A stretch of 24,861 nucleotides of DNA from a virus (IMGVR_UViG_3300032086_000293:1-24861), one strand, 5' to 3'. Numbered from the stretch's first letter, positions 4,661 through 11,108 are shown. Notes: generated from the sequence alone by a model not told the origin. Numbers and translations: made by a program.

Positions 4661-6793
4661 TTAATCTTTAGTTCCTTTAGAAGCTGCTGTCATTGGAACA
4701 TCTCGTTCTGCTAGTGCAGCACGTGAGGTTTTTGGACCTTTACCATTACCCCTTGCTGCTCTAATACTAATAGCAGCTTGTCTTCCTCTAGGAGTAAGTG
4801 ATTGTAATGCTGCATTGAATACTGCATCATCTTCAGTTCTTGCCATTTCTAAAATCTTATCTAGTTCTTGAGGTTCAAGACCACTATCAGCTAATGCTTT
4901 TCTAAGTTTAATATTTAATTCAACAACACCTCTTTCTCTGTCTGCTAGTGCAATTGCTTGATCAGCTTCAAGTCCTGATTCAGCAAGTTCAATTGCCCTT
5001 TTCTGTATTGTAGCTTCTTTAGCTTTCTCAGGCAGATCACTAAATGCTTCAGCTAACTGTTGTGTTGTAGCTTTAGTTGGATCAGCGGCAGCAAACTTTA
5101 ACAATCCTTGAGCAAAGTCTGCCATGCCATAACCTAAGTCTTCTTTTTGTTTTGCTAATAATTCAGCTTGACCTTCATACTTTTTAGTCAAAGCATCTAC
5201 AATTTTCTTTTCACTTGCTACTAGAGAACCAATGTCACCAAAAGCAGGTTCTGAAACAGGTGGCTTTGCTGTTTCTGCAGCTTTCTTTTTTCCTTCTGCT
5301 AATTTTGCTTCTTCTTCTTTAGCTTTTTTAGCAGCTAAGACATTTTCTTTTTCAATATTTTTTGCTTGCTCTATTGTAGCCTGTCTCTTCTCTGGTTGAG
5401 AAAGAGCAGATTGTTTAAGACCAAAAGTAGATTGTTCTTGAATCTTTGGTAAAATTCTTTCTAATGTTTGAGGAGACTCTTTTAGTGCCTCTTTCACAAT
5501 GTCTTCTTCTGTAGCTTTTTCTCTTAAAAGTTTTATAGCACTTCTTTCTCTTAATTTTTCTTCTTCAGATATTTCTTCTTCACCAAATAATCTTTTCCCT
5601 AAATTAGATAAAAATTCAGGAAATGGAGAAGGTCTGTCATCAGGAACACCTTGTGATGCTGCTGTAGCAGGTGAACCACCATCAGCTAAACTAACAAGTC
5701 CACCTTCCTTTTTAAATGCAGCGGCTGCGCCAAGAGCAAGTCCGCCAAGTCCTGACGCTTGCTGTAAGAATGAGGGAGCAGGTGTTGTTCTCTGTGAACG
5801 CTCTATAGTAGAAGCAGGAATAGGTGCAGCATAACCACGAATGATTGACTGGTAGTCCTGTAGTGTACGCTCTGGGAATGTACGAGCAATCTCGTATTCT
5901 TGTTGTGCAATGTCCAATGCCTGTTGCTGTTGCTGCTGTCTCTGTGCACCAATAGCTTCAAGTGCAGACAACTCACGGAATGCCTGTCCCGGTGCTATTT
6001 GTCCTAGTGTAGCAAACTGTGCACCTGCAAGACGTTCACGTTCACGCTGCTGTTGTAAACGTGCCTGTGCATCTTCGTATGCTCCAGCTAAACCACGTGC
6101 TTGAATATCACCTAGTTTCTGTTGTAGATTACGTGCCTGTTCTGCTTCAAGAATTGCCTGACGAGAACCACCAAATCCACCAGCAGTTACAGCTTGTTTT
6201 CCTAACTGTTGACGCTCTACGTCTGCTGCTCTACGTGCTTCACGCTGTTGTATATCTACTACATTCTGTAGATAAGGATTCATAAACTGTGATACTTGTG
6301 GTGCAGTAGGTGCAAATGCACTAGCCGCTGTAAGCCTAGCGGCAGGATCAAAGTACTGCTGTCCTTGACCTACAAGACCTTTGATACTTTCAAATGCTTG
6401 TGTCTGCTCAGGAGCAAACTCTGCAATACGTGCACCTGCAAATGGAACATAACCTTCTACTTCTCTACGCTCTTGAATTGCACGTGCTTTCTCAAGAACA
6501 TCAGTAACGAATGGCTTTAGTTCTTCAGGAATAGTAGCTTGTTGAGTAACAGTCTGTGTAGCAGGAGGAGGTGGAGGAGGAGAACCACCACCACCAAATT
6601 GAATTAGATTGGTATGTGGGTTGATTGTACCTGATCCACCCATAGCACGCAGAACTGCCATCTCTTCCACGTTGACATGTGCAAGTTCAGTATCTCCATC
6701 AATACCTTTACCTGACAAGTCTTCATAGAGACAGTTGTACAGTTCAATCTTTTCTGCTACCGAAAGATCATTGATCAACTTGTTTGCTTCCAT
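4661..6793 (-). CDS. Internal virion / DNA-transfer protein with hexaproline linker, 710 aa
   Basis: Residues 37-66 carry a short module (ELAHV..., then GTINPHTN) that is also found twice in the 1052-aa protein. A Gly-rich stretch and six prolines (72-77) follow. Residues about 85-300 are a Gln/Arg/Glu/Ala-rich helical region with FMNPYLQNVVD (170-180) and GGFGGSRQA (205-213), a combination I associate with phage ejection or DNA-transfer proteins of marine podoviruses. GGLVSLADGG lies at 364-373. The C-terminal half is Lys/Glu/Ala-rich and probably coiled coil. There is no signal peptide and no enzyme motif. The ATG overlaps the stop of the GNAT-like gene by one base (TAATG). The protein probably travels inside the virion and forms part of the ejection apparatus; this rests on composition, motifs and neighbours. 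Confidence 0.62.
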   Translation of the reverse strand: MEANKLINDLSVAEKIELYNCLYEDLSGKGIDGDTELAHVNVEEMAVLRAMGGSGTINPHTNLIQFGGGGSPPPPPPATQTVTQQATIPEELKPFVTDVLEKARAIQERREVEGYVPFAGARIAEFAPEQTQAFESIKGLVGQGQQYFDPAARLTAASAFAPTAPQVSQFMNPYLQNVVDIQQREARRAADVERQQLGKQAVTAGGFGGSRQAILEAEQARNLQQKLGDIQARGLAGAYEDAQARLQQQRERERLAGAQFATLGQIAPGQAFRELSALEAIGAQRQQQQQQALDIAQQEYEIARTFPERTLQDYQSIIRGYAAPIPASTIERSQRTTPAPSFLQQASGLGGLALGAAAAFKKEGGLVSLADGGSPATAASQGVPDDRPSPFPEFLSNLGKRLFGEEEISEEEKLRERSAIKLLREKATEEDIVKEALKESPQTLERILPKIQEQSTFGLKQSALSQPEKRQATIEQAKNIEKENVLAAKKAKEEEAKLAEGKKKAAETAKPPVSEPAFGDIGSLVASEKKIVDALTKKYEGQAELLAKQKEDLGYGMADFAQGLLKFAAADPTKATTQQLAEAFSDLPEKAKEATIQKRAIELAESGLEADQAIALADRERGVVELNIKLRKALADSGLEPQELDKILEMARTEDDAVFNAALQSLTPRGRQAAISIRAARGNGKGPKTSRAALAERDVPMTAASKGTKD

Positions 6794-7224
6794 TACTCAA
6801 TTTCCTTTACAATCGTAGTATAATACTTTTTAAAGTTAAACTTCTTAGTGTACTTTAGCCAACCATCCCTGACATAACACTCAAGTCTTACTGCTCCTTG
6901 TTCTTTACCCCACTGCATTAGTGGAGAATTATCGTCCATTGTGTACTCGTACCACTTGCTTATTGTATGTGGCTTAGTTCCTACCAGCGGTAAAGACAAA
7001 GCCTTGTACTTAGGATACTGTATCAACTGTGTAACACATGCACCCAGTATTCCTTCTTCTTCACTTGCCAAAACCCATAGCTGCATTTGATTGTGAAGAA
7101 GAGAAAGGTAAACATCATCTATGTCTCTCTCGCCCATACCTCTGTCTACAGGTTTTTTAATAAAGTGTTTTACATAAGGCCAAGTAACTTCTACACAGTT
7201 TTGTTCAATTCTTATTAGTTTCAT
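6793..7224 (-). CDS. GNAT-fold-like protein, possible T7 gp13-type core protein, 143 aa
   Basis: The order of predicted strands and helices fits a GNAT acetyltransferase fold: a helical N-terminal half, a strand pair around LWVLASEEEGILGACVTQLI (about 49-68) and a C-terminal helix-strand part (WGKEQGAVRLECYV, then FNFKKYYTTIVKEI). The Q/R-x-x-G-x-G/A acetyl-CoA loop expected after the central strand is not visible, so it may be a non-catalytic relative. Internal virion protein A (gp13) of T7-like phages is small and GNAT-related, and this gene sits at the matching place just before the large core proteins. It starts after the only substantial intergenic gap in the window, which carries a 19-bp tandem repeat. 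No strong Shine-Dalgarno sequence is seen (AATAAGAAAAA before ATG). Fold fairly likely; role inferred. Confidence 0.6.
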   Translation of the reverse strand: MKLIRIEQNCVEVTWPYVKHFIKKPVDRGMGERDIDDVYLSLLHNQMQLWVLASEEEGILGACVTQLIQYPKYKALSLPLVGTKPHTISKWYEYTMDDNSPLMQWGKEQGAVRLECYVRDGWLKYTKKFNFKKYYTTIVKEIE

Positions 7225-7229
7225 TTTTT

Positions 7230-7279
7230 CTTATTGTTATTATTATCTCAAATTTTATTGCTTATTGTTATTATTATCT
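7230..7279. repeat. Two identical 19-bp direct repeats in the only real intergenic gap
   Basis: On the minus strand the sequence AGATAATAATAACAATAAG occurs twice, at 7261-7279 and 7230-7248, with a start-to-start distance of 31 bp, about three turns of the helix. The 60-bp gap 7225-7284 between the proline-rich gene and the GNAT-like gene is almost pure A/T and is the longest non-coding stretch in the window. The copies lie directly upstream of the GNAT-like gene start. They could be binding sites or promoter elements for the downstream core-protein genes, or a slippage duplication. No inverted repeat or terminator stem is visible. Confidence 0.75.
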
Positions 7280-7284
7280 ATCAA

Positions 7285-7950
7285 TTAATCACTCACGGAA
7301 TTTTCACTTGCCCAGTATTCTCGTTGTAATCTACCAAAGTCTTCTACCTCTTGTTGTCTTTGTTCTGCTGCAGAAAGTGCATTAGCTTCTGCCGCTGCTT
7401 TTGCTGCATCCTGCTCTGCAAATCTTTTATCAATTGCATCTAGTCTACGTAGTGTATCTCTTGCAGTAAGTTCGTCATCAAAATTAGTCCTAGATAATTC
7501 AGTTACATCTATTTGTGGACTGGGAGAAGTATAACCAGTGCTGCCATAAGGAGACAGAGGAATACTTGCAAGTCCTGTGAAAGGTGATGTAGGTGTAGGT
7601 GTAAGAGGTGAAGAAATACCACCACCTTTATTACTCTGCACAGGTGTAGGCAATGGTTGTGCTACTACTGGATCAGAAGCAAATGTTGGAGAAGGAATAG
7701 CAGCAGAACCGCCACCCTTATTTGATGTTGACAAAGGTAGTGAAGATGTTGGTGGTGGAGGTGGCGGTGCAGCAGCAGGTACAGTAGGAGTACCTCCACC
7801 TTTATTAGATGTATTTGGAAAACCTGTTGGACCTGCTGGTGACACTGGTAATGTAGACATACCTGCACCACGATTTACCAACTGTGGAGTAGCTGGTGTT
7901 GTTGCTGCTGGTGTTGTAGGTGCTACAGGTAAGCCTCTTGATCCACCCAT
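7285..7950 (-). CDS. Proline-rich protein with NKGGG repeats and C-terminal coiled coil, 221 aa
   Basis: I do not recognise this protein as a named family. Residues 1-150 are low-complexity Pro/Thr/Ser/Ala/Gly and presumably unfolded. They hold four related elements: NRGAG at 26-30 and NKGGG at 49-53, 77-81 and 107-111, each followed by Pro/Ser-rich spacer. A run of six prolines lies at 62-67. Residues about 153-212 are charged and helical with heptad-like spacing, probably a coiled coil. The ATG overlaps the stop of the 1052-aa gene by one base, and GAGAGG lies about 9 bases upstream. Its place between the lysozyme-bearing protein and the core proteins suggests a small internal virion or linker protein. 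Function unknown. Confidence 0.6.
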   Translation of the reverse strand: MGGSRGLPVAPTTPAATTPATPQLVNRGAGMSTLPVSPAGPTGFPNTSNKGGGTPTVPAAAPPPPPPTSSLPLSTSNKGGGSAAIPSPTFASDPVVAQPLPTPVQSNKGGGISSPLTPTPTSPFTGLASIPLSPYGSTGYTSPSPQIDVTELSRTNFDDELTARDTLRRLDAIDKRFAEQDAAKAAAEANALSAAEQRQQEVEDFGRLQREYWASENSVSD

Positions 7951-10900
7951 TAAACTAATCCTCTCAAATCTTGTTGTGCATTAAGCTGTCTTTGTTGTTT
8001 CTCTGTTCCAAATGAGTCTTGTCTAATACCCTTGATGAAACTGTCTAACTGTTCTGATCCTGCATTAGAAGAACCATTGCCAAGCATTGCTACCACATCT
8101 GCAGGTATAACATATTCGTCACGACTTAGCAAGGCTTTGTCAGGATTGTTGCCCTCTACTTCAAATAGTATTTGATCTGACATACCATCACCATTACCAA
8201 CTACCTGACCTTCAAAGTATTTTCCTACTTCACCACCTTGTGCATAACCTAATGCACCACGTACTCTATCTAAAAACGAACTTTGATCAGGAACAGTTAT
8301 TTCCTGTCCTCGGCTAATAACATTAGGATCAGAAATACTTTTATTTGCTTCAAGCAACTCATCTAAAGACATACCTTGTTGTTTTGCAATAGCAGATAAC
8401 GTATCTCCTGCTTGTACTTCATATTGTTTATCGTCACCGCTAAGTATATTTCTTAATATAGAAAGTATTCCTGCGTCTTTTTCTGTATCAGATAACTTAG
8501 CCATTTGAGTTTCTTTTTGTACAATGGGCATACCTGAATAAACAGAACTAAAAGGTTTATCATCATACATGTCTTTAGTTGTTGGAACAGATAGTTTTTT
8601 TAGTTCATTAGAAACAAGTTCCATGCGAGGTTTAATTCCTGATCTTTTTCTTTCCTCTGCTTTTCTATATTCTTCATTATTTAAAAATTCTTTGCTTGCT
8701 TTTTCATACTCTCCAGCGTTAATTAATTTTATAGTTTTAGGACTACCACTTAAACTTCCTCTAAACCATTCACCTACCATAGCTGTTTTTAAACTTTGCG
8801 GAAAAGAATCAAAATCTTTTATTTTATTTTTAATTTTAGGTAATCTTTTTCTTATATCTCTTCTTAGTAATAAGTCAGCTTGCTCTTCTGTTATTTCTTT
8901 ATCTGTCATTTTTACATTTTCTGTATGACCATAACCTATAGTTGGCTTGTCTCCTTTTGTAGGTATATAGGGCTTGGCTTTAAACTTTTCTTTTTCTTTT
9001 AAAAAAGAAACATAAGGTTCAATACTTTCTTCTTGAGGAATATCTCCTCCCTCTCTTAACCCTACCAACCCACCTGTGTTAAACCCAAAGTTAGTACCAG
9101 AAACAAAGGAAGAAGGAGCGGCTGACTGCCCCGGTGGAGTTGCATATGCTTGTGGTCCTTGGGCTAGTTGTTGTCCAATAACTTGTCCTGCAGCTTGCAT
9201 CTGTTGAAACAGTTGCTGATTACCTGTAGGCTGTTCAATAAACTGTTGTCCACGAGACATTGCCTGATCACGTTGTAGTAGTTCATCCTGCCGTGCACGT
9301 TCAGATATCTGTTGTTCCTGCTGTTGTAGCAGGGGTGTTTGTTGTTGCTGTTGTAGTACTGGTGATAGTTGTGACTGCAACACTCCCTGTTCAGGTGTAC
9401 CACCCTCTACTAATCTAACTAAACCACCCGCAGCTTTAGGATATAGTCCTGTATCTGCTGTGTCAAAGTATGAATGTCTTCCAGCACCCATTTCATTTAA
9501 TTGTAAATTTCTTGGAGAAGAAGCGTTTTGATTTATAAATTGAATAGCTTGTGGATTGTTCCTAAGAACAAGAGACATTAAAGCACTTACTCCACCCCTG
9601 CTTTCTAAGTCATTGAATACCCTGCTTGCTCTATCCTCTTGAGAGGGAGCAGCAGACATATCAGTGCGTATTCTCTCGCTTTCTGGTGTGATAGACATTG
9701 CTGTTAAACTAGAAGGTTGCCCACCCTCTTCTAAACCTACAAGTCCACCCTGTGCAGCATAACGATACTGTTCTGATAGTGGCTGATAACCACCCTCTAG
9801 TGCCATGCGAAGATACTCTTCTGATGAACGAGCAGGTGACTGTACACCACCAGCAAGTGTACGTTCACGTGGTACATAGGATGGACCTAATGTTGGTTCT
9901 TGTATATCTAATTCTTCATATTCTGGTGGTTGCATTAGTGTAGTAAGACCTGCACCAACATATGTCATAGGGTCTTTAAATGTTGCTTCTAAAAATTCAC
10001 CCGGTTTCATATCTGTAGGTCTACCACCAACATCTATATATTCTTGTCTTGTAATATACTCTCTACCAGTAAAATCTTTTGCTCCTGTTGCTTGTCTAAA
10101 TTTACTAGGTGCTTCATATGTTTTAGGATCAATCGTTGCAAATTTGTTTTCAGTTGCAAAACCTGCTGGATATTTTTCAAGTTGGGATGCTGTCATTTGA
10201 TCAACAGAAAACTCAGGTGTAGGAATTCGTGCCGCACCAGCAGTTGCTGTTGGAGTTGTATCAAGTATAGGTACTTGAGGAGTTAATGTTGCTTGTTGTG
10301 TAAGTGGAGTAGGTACTTGTCCAGCCATGCCTCCTCCATAATTTATTGCAGCTTGCTTTACTGAGGGTGCAACAGCAGAAGAAGCAGCAGTGCTTGCTGC
10401 TACATTTGCAGTAGTTGTTGGTAACGTAGTTTGAATTGCTTGTTGTGATGCTCCCTCAATAAAACCTTGTCCACCTATATCAGTTAGTGTACTTCCTCCT
10501 GCTCCTCCTGTTATTGGATCAATACCTGCAGGTGCACCAGAGAAAAATCCTGCAGTAGCGCCTGACATTAAACCACCAAGTGCAGCTTGACCTACTCCTT
10601 GTCCAGCAGCAAGACCACCAGCAAACCCTCCAACACCTGCTGCTAATCCTGTAGCAAGCGCACCTTTTCCTACAAGCATTCCAAAAGCTGGACCAAGTAA
10701 AAAACTACCACCAATTGCACCTATAGCAGGAAGAAGTGATTTAAAACTAAATGCTTCAGGTAGTCCTGTATCAGGATTGATTGTTAGTGTACCAAGAGAT
10801 GCAAGTCCCTGTAGTTCATCAGGACGTACATGCAACAACATGCTGTCACCATAACGTCCACGACTTGCAAGTTCATCTGCTACAGGTGCTAGTGGTGCAT

Positions 10901-11108
10901 CCTGTATGCTGCCACCATCAGCTACTGCAGCAATACCACGTGCCTGTGGAATACCTGAGTAAGAATTAAACTCCAGTCCACCCATACTTCCCATAGCTGC
11001 AATGTCCTTTGTAGGAACATATGCTAACTGTGTGGCAGGGTTGTTATCTCGCATATTAAGTAAACGAGTAAGTCCTGCTGCTGGTGCATTGGGGTTTATA
11101 TAATTCAT
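7950..11108 (-). CDS. Virion-associated GH24 lysozyme with LysM domain, ejection-type protein, 1052 aa
   Basis: Domain order: residues 28-55 and 91-118, two copies of a short module; about 123-195, a Gly/Ala-rich hydrophobic segment; about 575-660, a Gln-rich stretch; GGLVxLxxGG peptides at 454, 561 and 679; about 697-840, a phage-lysozyme (GH24) domain; 896-941, a LysM peptidoglycan-binding domain (YEVQAGDTLSAIA...); about 972-1052, a C-terminal region with GDGMSD and DEYVIPADVVAMLGNGS, a pattern common at the ends of phage virion proteins. In GH24 the likely catalytic Glu is E707, with Y714 and TIGYGHT (723-729) in the usual places. The size and neighbours argue against a free endolysin; it more likely cuts and grips peptidoglycan locally during DNA entry. 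The start lies 1 base after the stop of the 68-aa gene. Confidence 0.82.
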   Translation of the reverse strand: MNYINPNAPAAGLTRLLNMRDNNPATQLAYVPTKDIAAMGSMGGLEFNSYSGIPQARGIAAVADGGSIQDAPLAPVADELASRGRYGDSMLLHVRPDELQGLASLGTLTINPDTGLPEAFSFKSLLPAIGAIGGSFLLGPAFGMLVGKGALATGLAAGVGGFAGGLAAGQGVGQAALGGLMSGATAGFFSGAPAGIDPITGGAGGSTLTDIGGQGFIEGASQQAIQTTLPTTTANVAASTAASSAVAPSVKQAAINYGGGMAGQVPTPLTQQATLTPQVPILDTTPTATAGAARIPTPEFSVDQMTASQLEKYPAGFATENKFATIDPKTYEAPSKFRQATGAKDFTGREYITRQEYIDVGGRPTDMKPGEFLEATFKDPMTYVGAGLTTLMQPPEYEELDIQEPTLGPSYVPRERTLAGGVQSPARSSEEYLRMALEGGYQPLSEQYRYAAQGGLVGLEEGGQPSSLTAMSITPESERIRTDMSAAPSQEDRASRVFNDLESRGGVSALMSLVLRNNPQAIQFINQNASSPRNLQLNEMGAGRHSYFDTADTGLYPKAAGGLVRLVEGGTPEQGVLQSQLSPVLQQQQQTPLLQQQEQQISERARQDELLQRDQAMSRGQQFIEQPTGNQQLFQQMQAAGQVIGQQLAQGPQAYATPPGQSAAPSSFVSGTNFGFNTGGLVGLREGGDIPQEESIEPYVSFLKEKEKFKAKPYIPTKGDKPTIGYGHTENVKMTDKEITEEQADLLLRRDIRKRLPKIKNKIKDFDSFPQSLKTAMVGEWFRGSLSGSPKTIKLINAGEYEKASKEFLNNEEYRKAEERKRSGIKPRMELVSNELKKLSVPTTKDMYDDKPFSSVYSGMPIVQKETQMAKLSDTEKDAGILSILRNILSGDDKQYEVQAGDTLSAIAKQQGMSLDELLEANKSISDPNVISRGQEITVPDQSSFLDRVRGALGYAQGGEVGKYFEGQVVGNGDGMSDQILFEVEGNNPDKALLSRDEYVIPADVVAMLGNGSSNAGSEQLDSFIKGIRQDSFGTEKQQRQLNAQQDLRGLV

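Follow-up and report, generated by a model that had tools for sequence, protein, structure and literature searches.

A module of about 50 amino acids is carried by two proteins of the virus record IMGVR_UViG_3300032086_000293, a 24.9-kb stretch (24,861 nucleotides, called the window below) whose proteins match podovirus-type families. It stands twice in P0001 (1052 aa, 7950..11108) and once in P0002 (710 aa, 4661..6793), and these three copies are homologous by sequence comparison. The same module recurs at a syntenic position in other phages, many of them uncultured and aquatic, in some siphovirus tape-measure proteins, and in proteins encoded on alphaproteobacterial chromosomes. It is recurrently the only part that neighbouring proteins share, it is strongly constrained, and the sequence behind it is exchanged. 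This recurrence beside swapped parts suggests a common attachment or delivery tag. Judged by database comparison, the module is a previously undescribed domain, present in none of Pfam, PHROGs, NCBIfam and PDB. All coordinates given for P0001, P0002, P0007 and their parts refer to the minus strand.

Three module copies in P0001 and P0002

The sequence-only reading of this DNA had placed one short module twice in the 1052-aa and once in the 710-aa protein, near the N-terminus of each; its coordinates and quoted residues were correct. Residues 28-55 (LAYVPTKDIAAMGSMGGLEFNSYSGIPQ) and 91-118 (LLHVRPDELQGLASLGTLTINPDTGLPE) of P0001 align without gaps at an offset of 63 with 8 of 28 identities, an alignment score matched by just 2 of the 496,506 pairs of 28-residue windows within P0001, and every one of the three pairings among the copies outscored 500 of 500 shuffles. 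We built a hidden Markov model (HMM) from 96 copies of other phages, with the window's relatives excluded, and compared it with the window. P0002 21-68 (independent E-value (i-E) 1.5e-19) and P0001 80-128 (i-E 1.2e-13) were the only matches, and the first copy of P0001 remained below detection (-1.6 bits). The full domain exceeds the segments noted there and covers about residues 78-130 of P0001 (copy 2, 10719..10877) and 19-70 of P0002 (6584..6739). Searches of deposited phages with the N-termini of P0001 and P0002, run separately, converged on L001, L002 and L003, whose proteins read GRGxDTxLAHITPxEAxxLKxxGGSGTINPDTGLPEF.

Copy 1 (P0001 28-55, 10944..11027) was traced through relatives of the window phage. 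Its counterpart in the relative L139 (VLMHMSPMEAQQITAMRGQGFNPQTGLP) was detected with E 5e-7 in a search of the whole L139 record, the counterparts in L005, L006 and L008 scored E 0.0014-0.002, and hhalign related P0001 copy 1 to the module with a probability of 82% (E 1e-5). Where the window reads FNSYSGIP, the relatives have FNPYSGIP at the same site. The low nonsynonymous divergence (pN) of copy 1 (0.049) shows that it is held by selection and is not decaying. By these matches, copy 1 is a diverged but true and constrained copy of the module. The spacing of 63 residues between the two P0001 copies, which the earlier reading had noted, is exact in the window clan; it is not fixed, since the offset in L139 is 61.

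Across 47 diverse copies, G, D, L, T, N, P, T and L are invariant and H, E, I and G near-invariant, and two classes can be distinguished, A (LAH[IV]...GGSGTINP) and B ([LV][VL]HM...TINPxTGLPEA). In a tree whose branch support was not assessed, P0001 copy 2 (H[VM]xPxE[LV]xGLxxL..TINPxTGLPEA) falls in class B and the P0002 module (DTxLAHhxxEExxxLxxxGGSGTINP) in class A. Because the two belong to different classes, a recent duplication inside the window genome is disfavoured.

The fold is predicted, with modest confidence, to consist of a helix, a D[TS]xL(A/V)H loop, a second helix and a TINPxTGLPE beta-hairpin. AlphaFold2 modelled each of the three window copies as a helix, an LAH-type loop, a helix and two short strands around NPxTG; the predicted elements thus follow in the same order in all three. 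As a separate observation, the second carrier at another phage locus (L261, 9962-11380) bears the hairpin alone (RINPFTGALEY) at its C-terminal end, which indicates that half-modules exist.

No consistent match was found for the 47 module sequences in Pfam, PHROGs or NCBIfam. The best match in a PDB sequence search had E 0.6, a PDB fold search gave nothing below E 0.47, and the motif strings of the module occur in no paper of the open literature. Fold matches in BFVD were uncultured phage proteins without known function, together with a weak match to an 'internal virion protein' (E 0.13). Several candidate relatives were rejected. The 'RINPETG' of adenylate kinase (E 0.6) is a chance match, and a C-terminal SDSIPAxLSDGEFV domain that looked alike by eye reached an hhalign probability of 0.1%. 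A sortase sorting signal (NPxTG/LPxTG), defined here by a C-terminal motif, a hydrophobic stretch and a short basic tail, has the wrong layout: the module is N-terminal or internal with hundreds of residues after it, and carriers of the second type described below have no hydrophobic stretch behind it. The spacing of a double-glycine leader, judged by eye, does not fit.

Carriers in phages and on bacterial chromosomes

DNA-pattern scans of uncultured viral contigs gave at least 120 matches for GGSGTINPxTGL and at least 120 for TINPxTGLPEA (counts derived from these scans are not prevalences), and the module was found on more than 240 such contigs; among 50,697 deposited phage records, four carry it (tblastn with the consensus module). 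The phrog_3287 stabilization family is present in 184 loci, and in 180 of these it precedes the carrier by 2-3 genes. In the window, this landmark is P0007 (11591..13465; E 1.3e-81). A P0002-like (phrog_4287-like) ejection gene lies 1-3 genes downstream of the carrier in 95 loci. Of the two window carriers, only P0002 matches a known ejection family, phrog_4287 'DNA ejection protein' (residues 78-360, 5714..6562; E 4e-13). P0001 has no Pfam or PHROG match beyond its Phage_lysozyme domain (residues 704-828, 8625..8999; PF00959, E 1.3e-12), which is a swappable middle part, and its LysM domain (residues 896-940, 8289..8423; PF01476, E 7.6e-13); it is placed in the ejection cassette by its position after the phrog_3287 protein. 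On these grounds, the earlier description of both carriers as ejection-type proteins is supported.

The complete phage carriers (n=168) comprise 119 of type I (module, hydrophobic Gly-rich segment, variable middle and C-terminal ..SDxIxA..L(S)DGEFV.. domain), to which P0001 belongs, 14 of type II (module and ejection domain), to which P0002 belongs, and 35 that fit neither HMM. Of 135 type I carriers, 131 have a hydrophobic segment within 110 aa behind the module, compared with 15 of 294 control windows and none of 15 type II carriers. In P0001, this segment corresponds to Gly-rich helices after copy 2 (residues 122-190, 10539..10745), predicted at 122-138, 151-167 and 172-190. The C-terminal constant domain of P0001 (residues 970-1052, SDQIL..LLSRDEYVIPADVV..LGNGSSNAG; 7953..8201; HMM E 3e-21) has no Pfam or PHROG match. 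This domain (..SDxIxA..L(S)DGEFV..LGNGSxxAG..) shows module-like conservation and is present in 119 of the 168 complete phage carriers.

Exactly one copy, on one carrier, was found in 50 of 57 whole records; of the window-clan records, six have two or three copies and the seventh, cut at its end, has one. Two neighbouring carriers also occur in three unrelated loci (L039, L101 and L261), and for the pairs of all four lineages, the window included, BLASTP found no significant similarity outside the module; apart from the module, P0001 and P0002 share only a 15-residue GGLV motif. The idea that the module gathers several proteins on one partner is thus consistent with the neighbouring pairs of four lineages, but it is no rule: since most whole records hold one carrier with one copy, such gathering would be a special case. 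In most of the phages studied here, the P0002-type ejection domain occurs by itself, with no module attached; in phages other than the window's, such a module-free domain directly follows type I carriers. The phrog_4287 match within P0002 itself starts behind the module. From the module-free domains we conclude that the module has moved between neighbouring genes.

Tape-measure proteins, like ejection proteins, occupy the injection channel, and those of three siphovirus loci carry the module: L045 (2543 aa; phrog_3779, E 3e-42), L254 and L260 (phrog_1533, E 6e-9, and phrog_24, E 9e-7). In these proteins the module is internal, not N-terminal, and lies outside the matched PHROG regions. The podovirus carriers resemble the ejection proteins of T7 (gp14-gp15-gp16) and P22 (gp7-gp20-gp16) in their gene position after tail and stabilization genes, in the large protein with a peptidoglycan hydrolase and hydrophobic segments, and in domain swapping between ejection proteins, which a review of these systems (PMC8954989) calls thematic for their mosaicism; the 50-aa module, however, is not described in that review.

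Close relatives of P0001 have 86-98% identity in the modules and 92-97% in the C-terminal domain. An unrelated segment replaces the lysozyme in L007, and the lysozyme and LysM domains are missing in L010; both protein ends are kept in each. Four relatives have the P0002 module with 100% identity, and in two of them residues 400-710 are replaced. Beside the value of 0.049 for P0001 copy 1, pN was 0.000 for the P0002 module, 0.030 for P0001 copy 2 and 0.022 for the C-terminal domain; it was 0.25-0.45 for the exchanged parts and 0.27 for the middle of P0001.

A scan of bacterial genomes detected the module in metagenome-assembled genomes, whose bins can be mixed. It was present in 21 of 297 genomes of the order of one such genome, several of which have 5-7 copies, and a 4.0-Mb contig of one genome holds seven; among the sampled Gammaproteobacteria it was found in 1 of 369, the seed genome only. 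One bacterial carrier adjoins an ATP synthase epsilon-chain gene and is therefore not in an evident prophage. The alphaproteobacterial carriers mostly consist of an N-terminal PG_binding_1 domain, the module and exchanged C-termini: the paralogues L282 and L283 have 96% identity from residue 22 to the end of the module at residue 167 and are unrelated beyond, and L284 and L286 are 95% identical over residues 1-184 with nothing alike after. Phage_Mu_F is present in two carriers and CHAP, below the cut-off, in one, and no toxin domain was recognised; inspected by eye, the N-termini give no obvious sign of a signal peptide. Sel1-repeat genes, considered as possible immunity genes, adjoin the L282 and L284 carriers, and in the genome G087 a Sel1 match lies within 12 kb of four of six carrier loci, with about 0.1 per locus expected (16 Sel1 genes in 4.0 Mb, by our own count).

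In their constant N-terminal part with sharply differing C-termini, their several paralogues per genome and the Phage_Mu_F domain of two of them, the alphaproteobacterial carriers resemble polymorphic toxins, including the MuF type (PMC3482391, PMC12226406). Unlike those, they have no identified toxin domain and no link to the type VI secretion system (T6SS), and a constant part made of PG_binding_1 and the module is not described in the available part of the polymorphic-toxin survey. Two further loci were noted. A carrier with a PG-binding-like N-terminus (L257/L275, contig C100 of genome G057) is found close to genes for a T7-type portal (phrog_332), a tail protein and a MORN-repeat protein, possibly in a prophage in a Rhodospirillaceae bin, and a 1496-aa protein (L289, genome G308) has an LSPGEYVV-type motif directly ahead of its module.

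Possible roles of the module

Our best reading, a real possibility if short of a probability, is that the module serves as an adaptor that stays constant, directs exchangeable cargo into a route of injection or delivery and holds it there. It would mark proteins for this route while what follows it in the chain is swapped. Short-tailed phages have the module on ejection proteins: on the type I protein, directly ahead of the hydrophobic Gly-rich segment, on the type II protein, ahead of a gp7-like ejection domain, or, like the window phage, on both. Some long-tailed phages have it built into the tape measure, which fills the same channel, and some alphaproteobacteria have it between a peptidoglycan-binding N-terminus and exchangeable C-termini. 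In favour of this reading are the homology of the copies, the neighbouring proteins of four lineages that are alike only in the module, the synteny, the constraint on the module with cargo exchanged behind it, the hydrophobic segment that follows it in type I carriers, the tape-measure carriers, the bacterial paralogues that diverge at or just after it, and the common order of predicted elements in the three window copies. We infer that the module acts by binding a partner on the delivery side and that the bacterial carrier proteins are delivered effectors; if the module binds the delivery machinery, the cargo can therefore change while the tag stays. A docking site in the virion is plausible for the podovirus modules. 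The proposed docking to portal or core is too narrow: since siphovirus tape measures and chromosomal proteins also carry the module, neither portal nor core is likely to be its partner in general. That phage ejection proteins and tape measures have one delivery domain in common with polymorphic proteins of bacterial chromosomes, as the constant tag of a shared route by which aquatic phages and some bacteria would inject exchangeable cargo across the envelope, is a broader proposal that we regard as rather doubtful.

Several points speak against the adaptor. It is hard to name a single docking partner that podoviruses, siphoviruses and bacterial proteins would all have, and in most phages the module needs no second carrier (50 of 57 records are single-carrier). 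A Pfam census of the middle parts of phage carriers recognised few known cargo domains, and the AlphaFold2 models are of modest confidence (mean pLDDT 63 and 68). VipB was found in 2 of the 21 module-positive genomes versus 28 of 297 overall; as it is not associated with the module, T6SS delivery of the bacterial carriers was rejected. Finally, a comparison that speaks for the adaptor has a limit: in the set of 119 type I carriers, 92% of pairs align in the module and 11% in the middle, but these carriers were picked for both constant ends, so that the conservation figures of the ends are partly circular, which the 11% of the middle is not.

The main rival, itself somewhat unlikely, is that the module acts after ejection in the target envelope, where it would bind a conserved host component (inner membrane, a periplasmic protein or peptidoglycan) and position the hydrophobic segment or enzyme that follows. 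With a partner on the host side, it would be understandable that one domain occurs in podoviruses, siphoviruses and bacterial proteins, and both the membrane-like segment directly behind the module of type I carriers and the carriers with lysozyme, LysM, PG_binding_1 or weak CHAP matches point the same way. Yet type II carriers lack the hydrophobic segment (0 of 15), most carriers have no recognised peptidoglycan domain, and the bacterial carriers have no obvious signal peptide.

That the module binds to itself, forming rings or joining type I with type II proteins, seems improbable. Neighbouring proteins alike only in the module, in four lineages, and several copies per chain in the bacterial carrier L288 and in P0001 would fit such an assembly, but most phages have one carrier with one copy, which would leave only a ring of a single protein. 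Still less probable is that the module serves as a processing site, where cleavage or self-cleavage near GGSG|TINP would free the cargo. The near-invariant D, H, E, GG and TINPxTG and the position just ahead of the exchangeable part would suit it; however, many class B copies, and P0001 copy 2 (GTLTINP) as well, have lost the GG, conservation reaches far upstream of any site, and the spacing, judged by eye, is not that of a double-glycine leader. Chance similarity of low-complexity N-termini, to which the low identity of copies 1 and 2 (8 of 28 residues) might point, is refuted for P0001 copy 2 and P0002 and has a negligible probability overall, given the matches to a profile of independent phages (E 1e-13 to 1e-19), 0 of 500 shuffles reaching the observed scores, and purifying selection on the module.

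The fast divergence of ejection proteins makes them difficult to recognise, and a short near-invariant module would allow them to be found in uncultured phages. It marks the one segment unable to change while lysozymes and other parts swap, and because tape measures and proteins of bacterial chromosomes have it too, it connects phage injection with bacterial effector-like proteins in a way that can be tested.

Short motifs and neighbouring genes in the window

A second short motif, GGLV(G/R/S)LxxGG, occurs at residues 454, 561 and 679 of P0001 and at residue 364 of P0002, and similar GG[IL]A motifs stand ahead of the module in many class A carriers. Between the two carriers lies P0005 (7285-7950), a proline-rich protein of 221 aa with three SNKGGG repeats. 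Directly upstream of P0002 lies P0006 (6793-7224; 143 aa), which, judged by eye, may have a GNAT-like fold; a family of similar size adjoins the carrier in about 39 loci, and one member of this family is the gene upstream of gp46, the single carrier of the isolated Methylophilales phage Venkman. Residues 235-416 of P0009 (19448-21154), probably a protein of the tail-fibre region, contain eight near-identical 21-residue repeats (SALTSVNTAAITSINTVVEAV).

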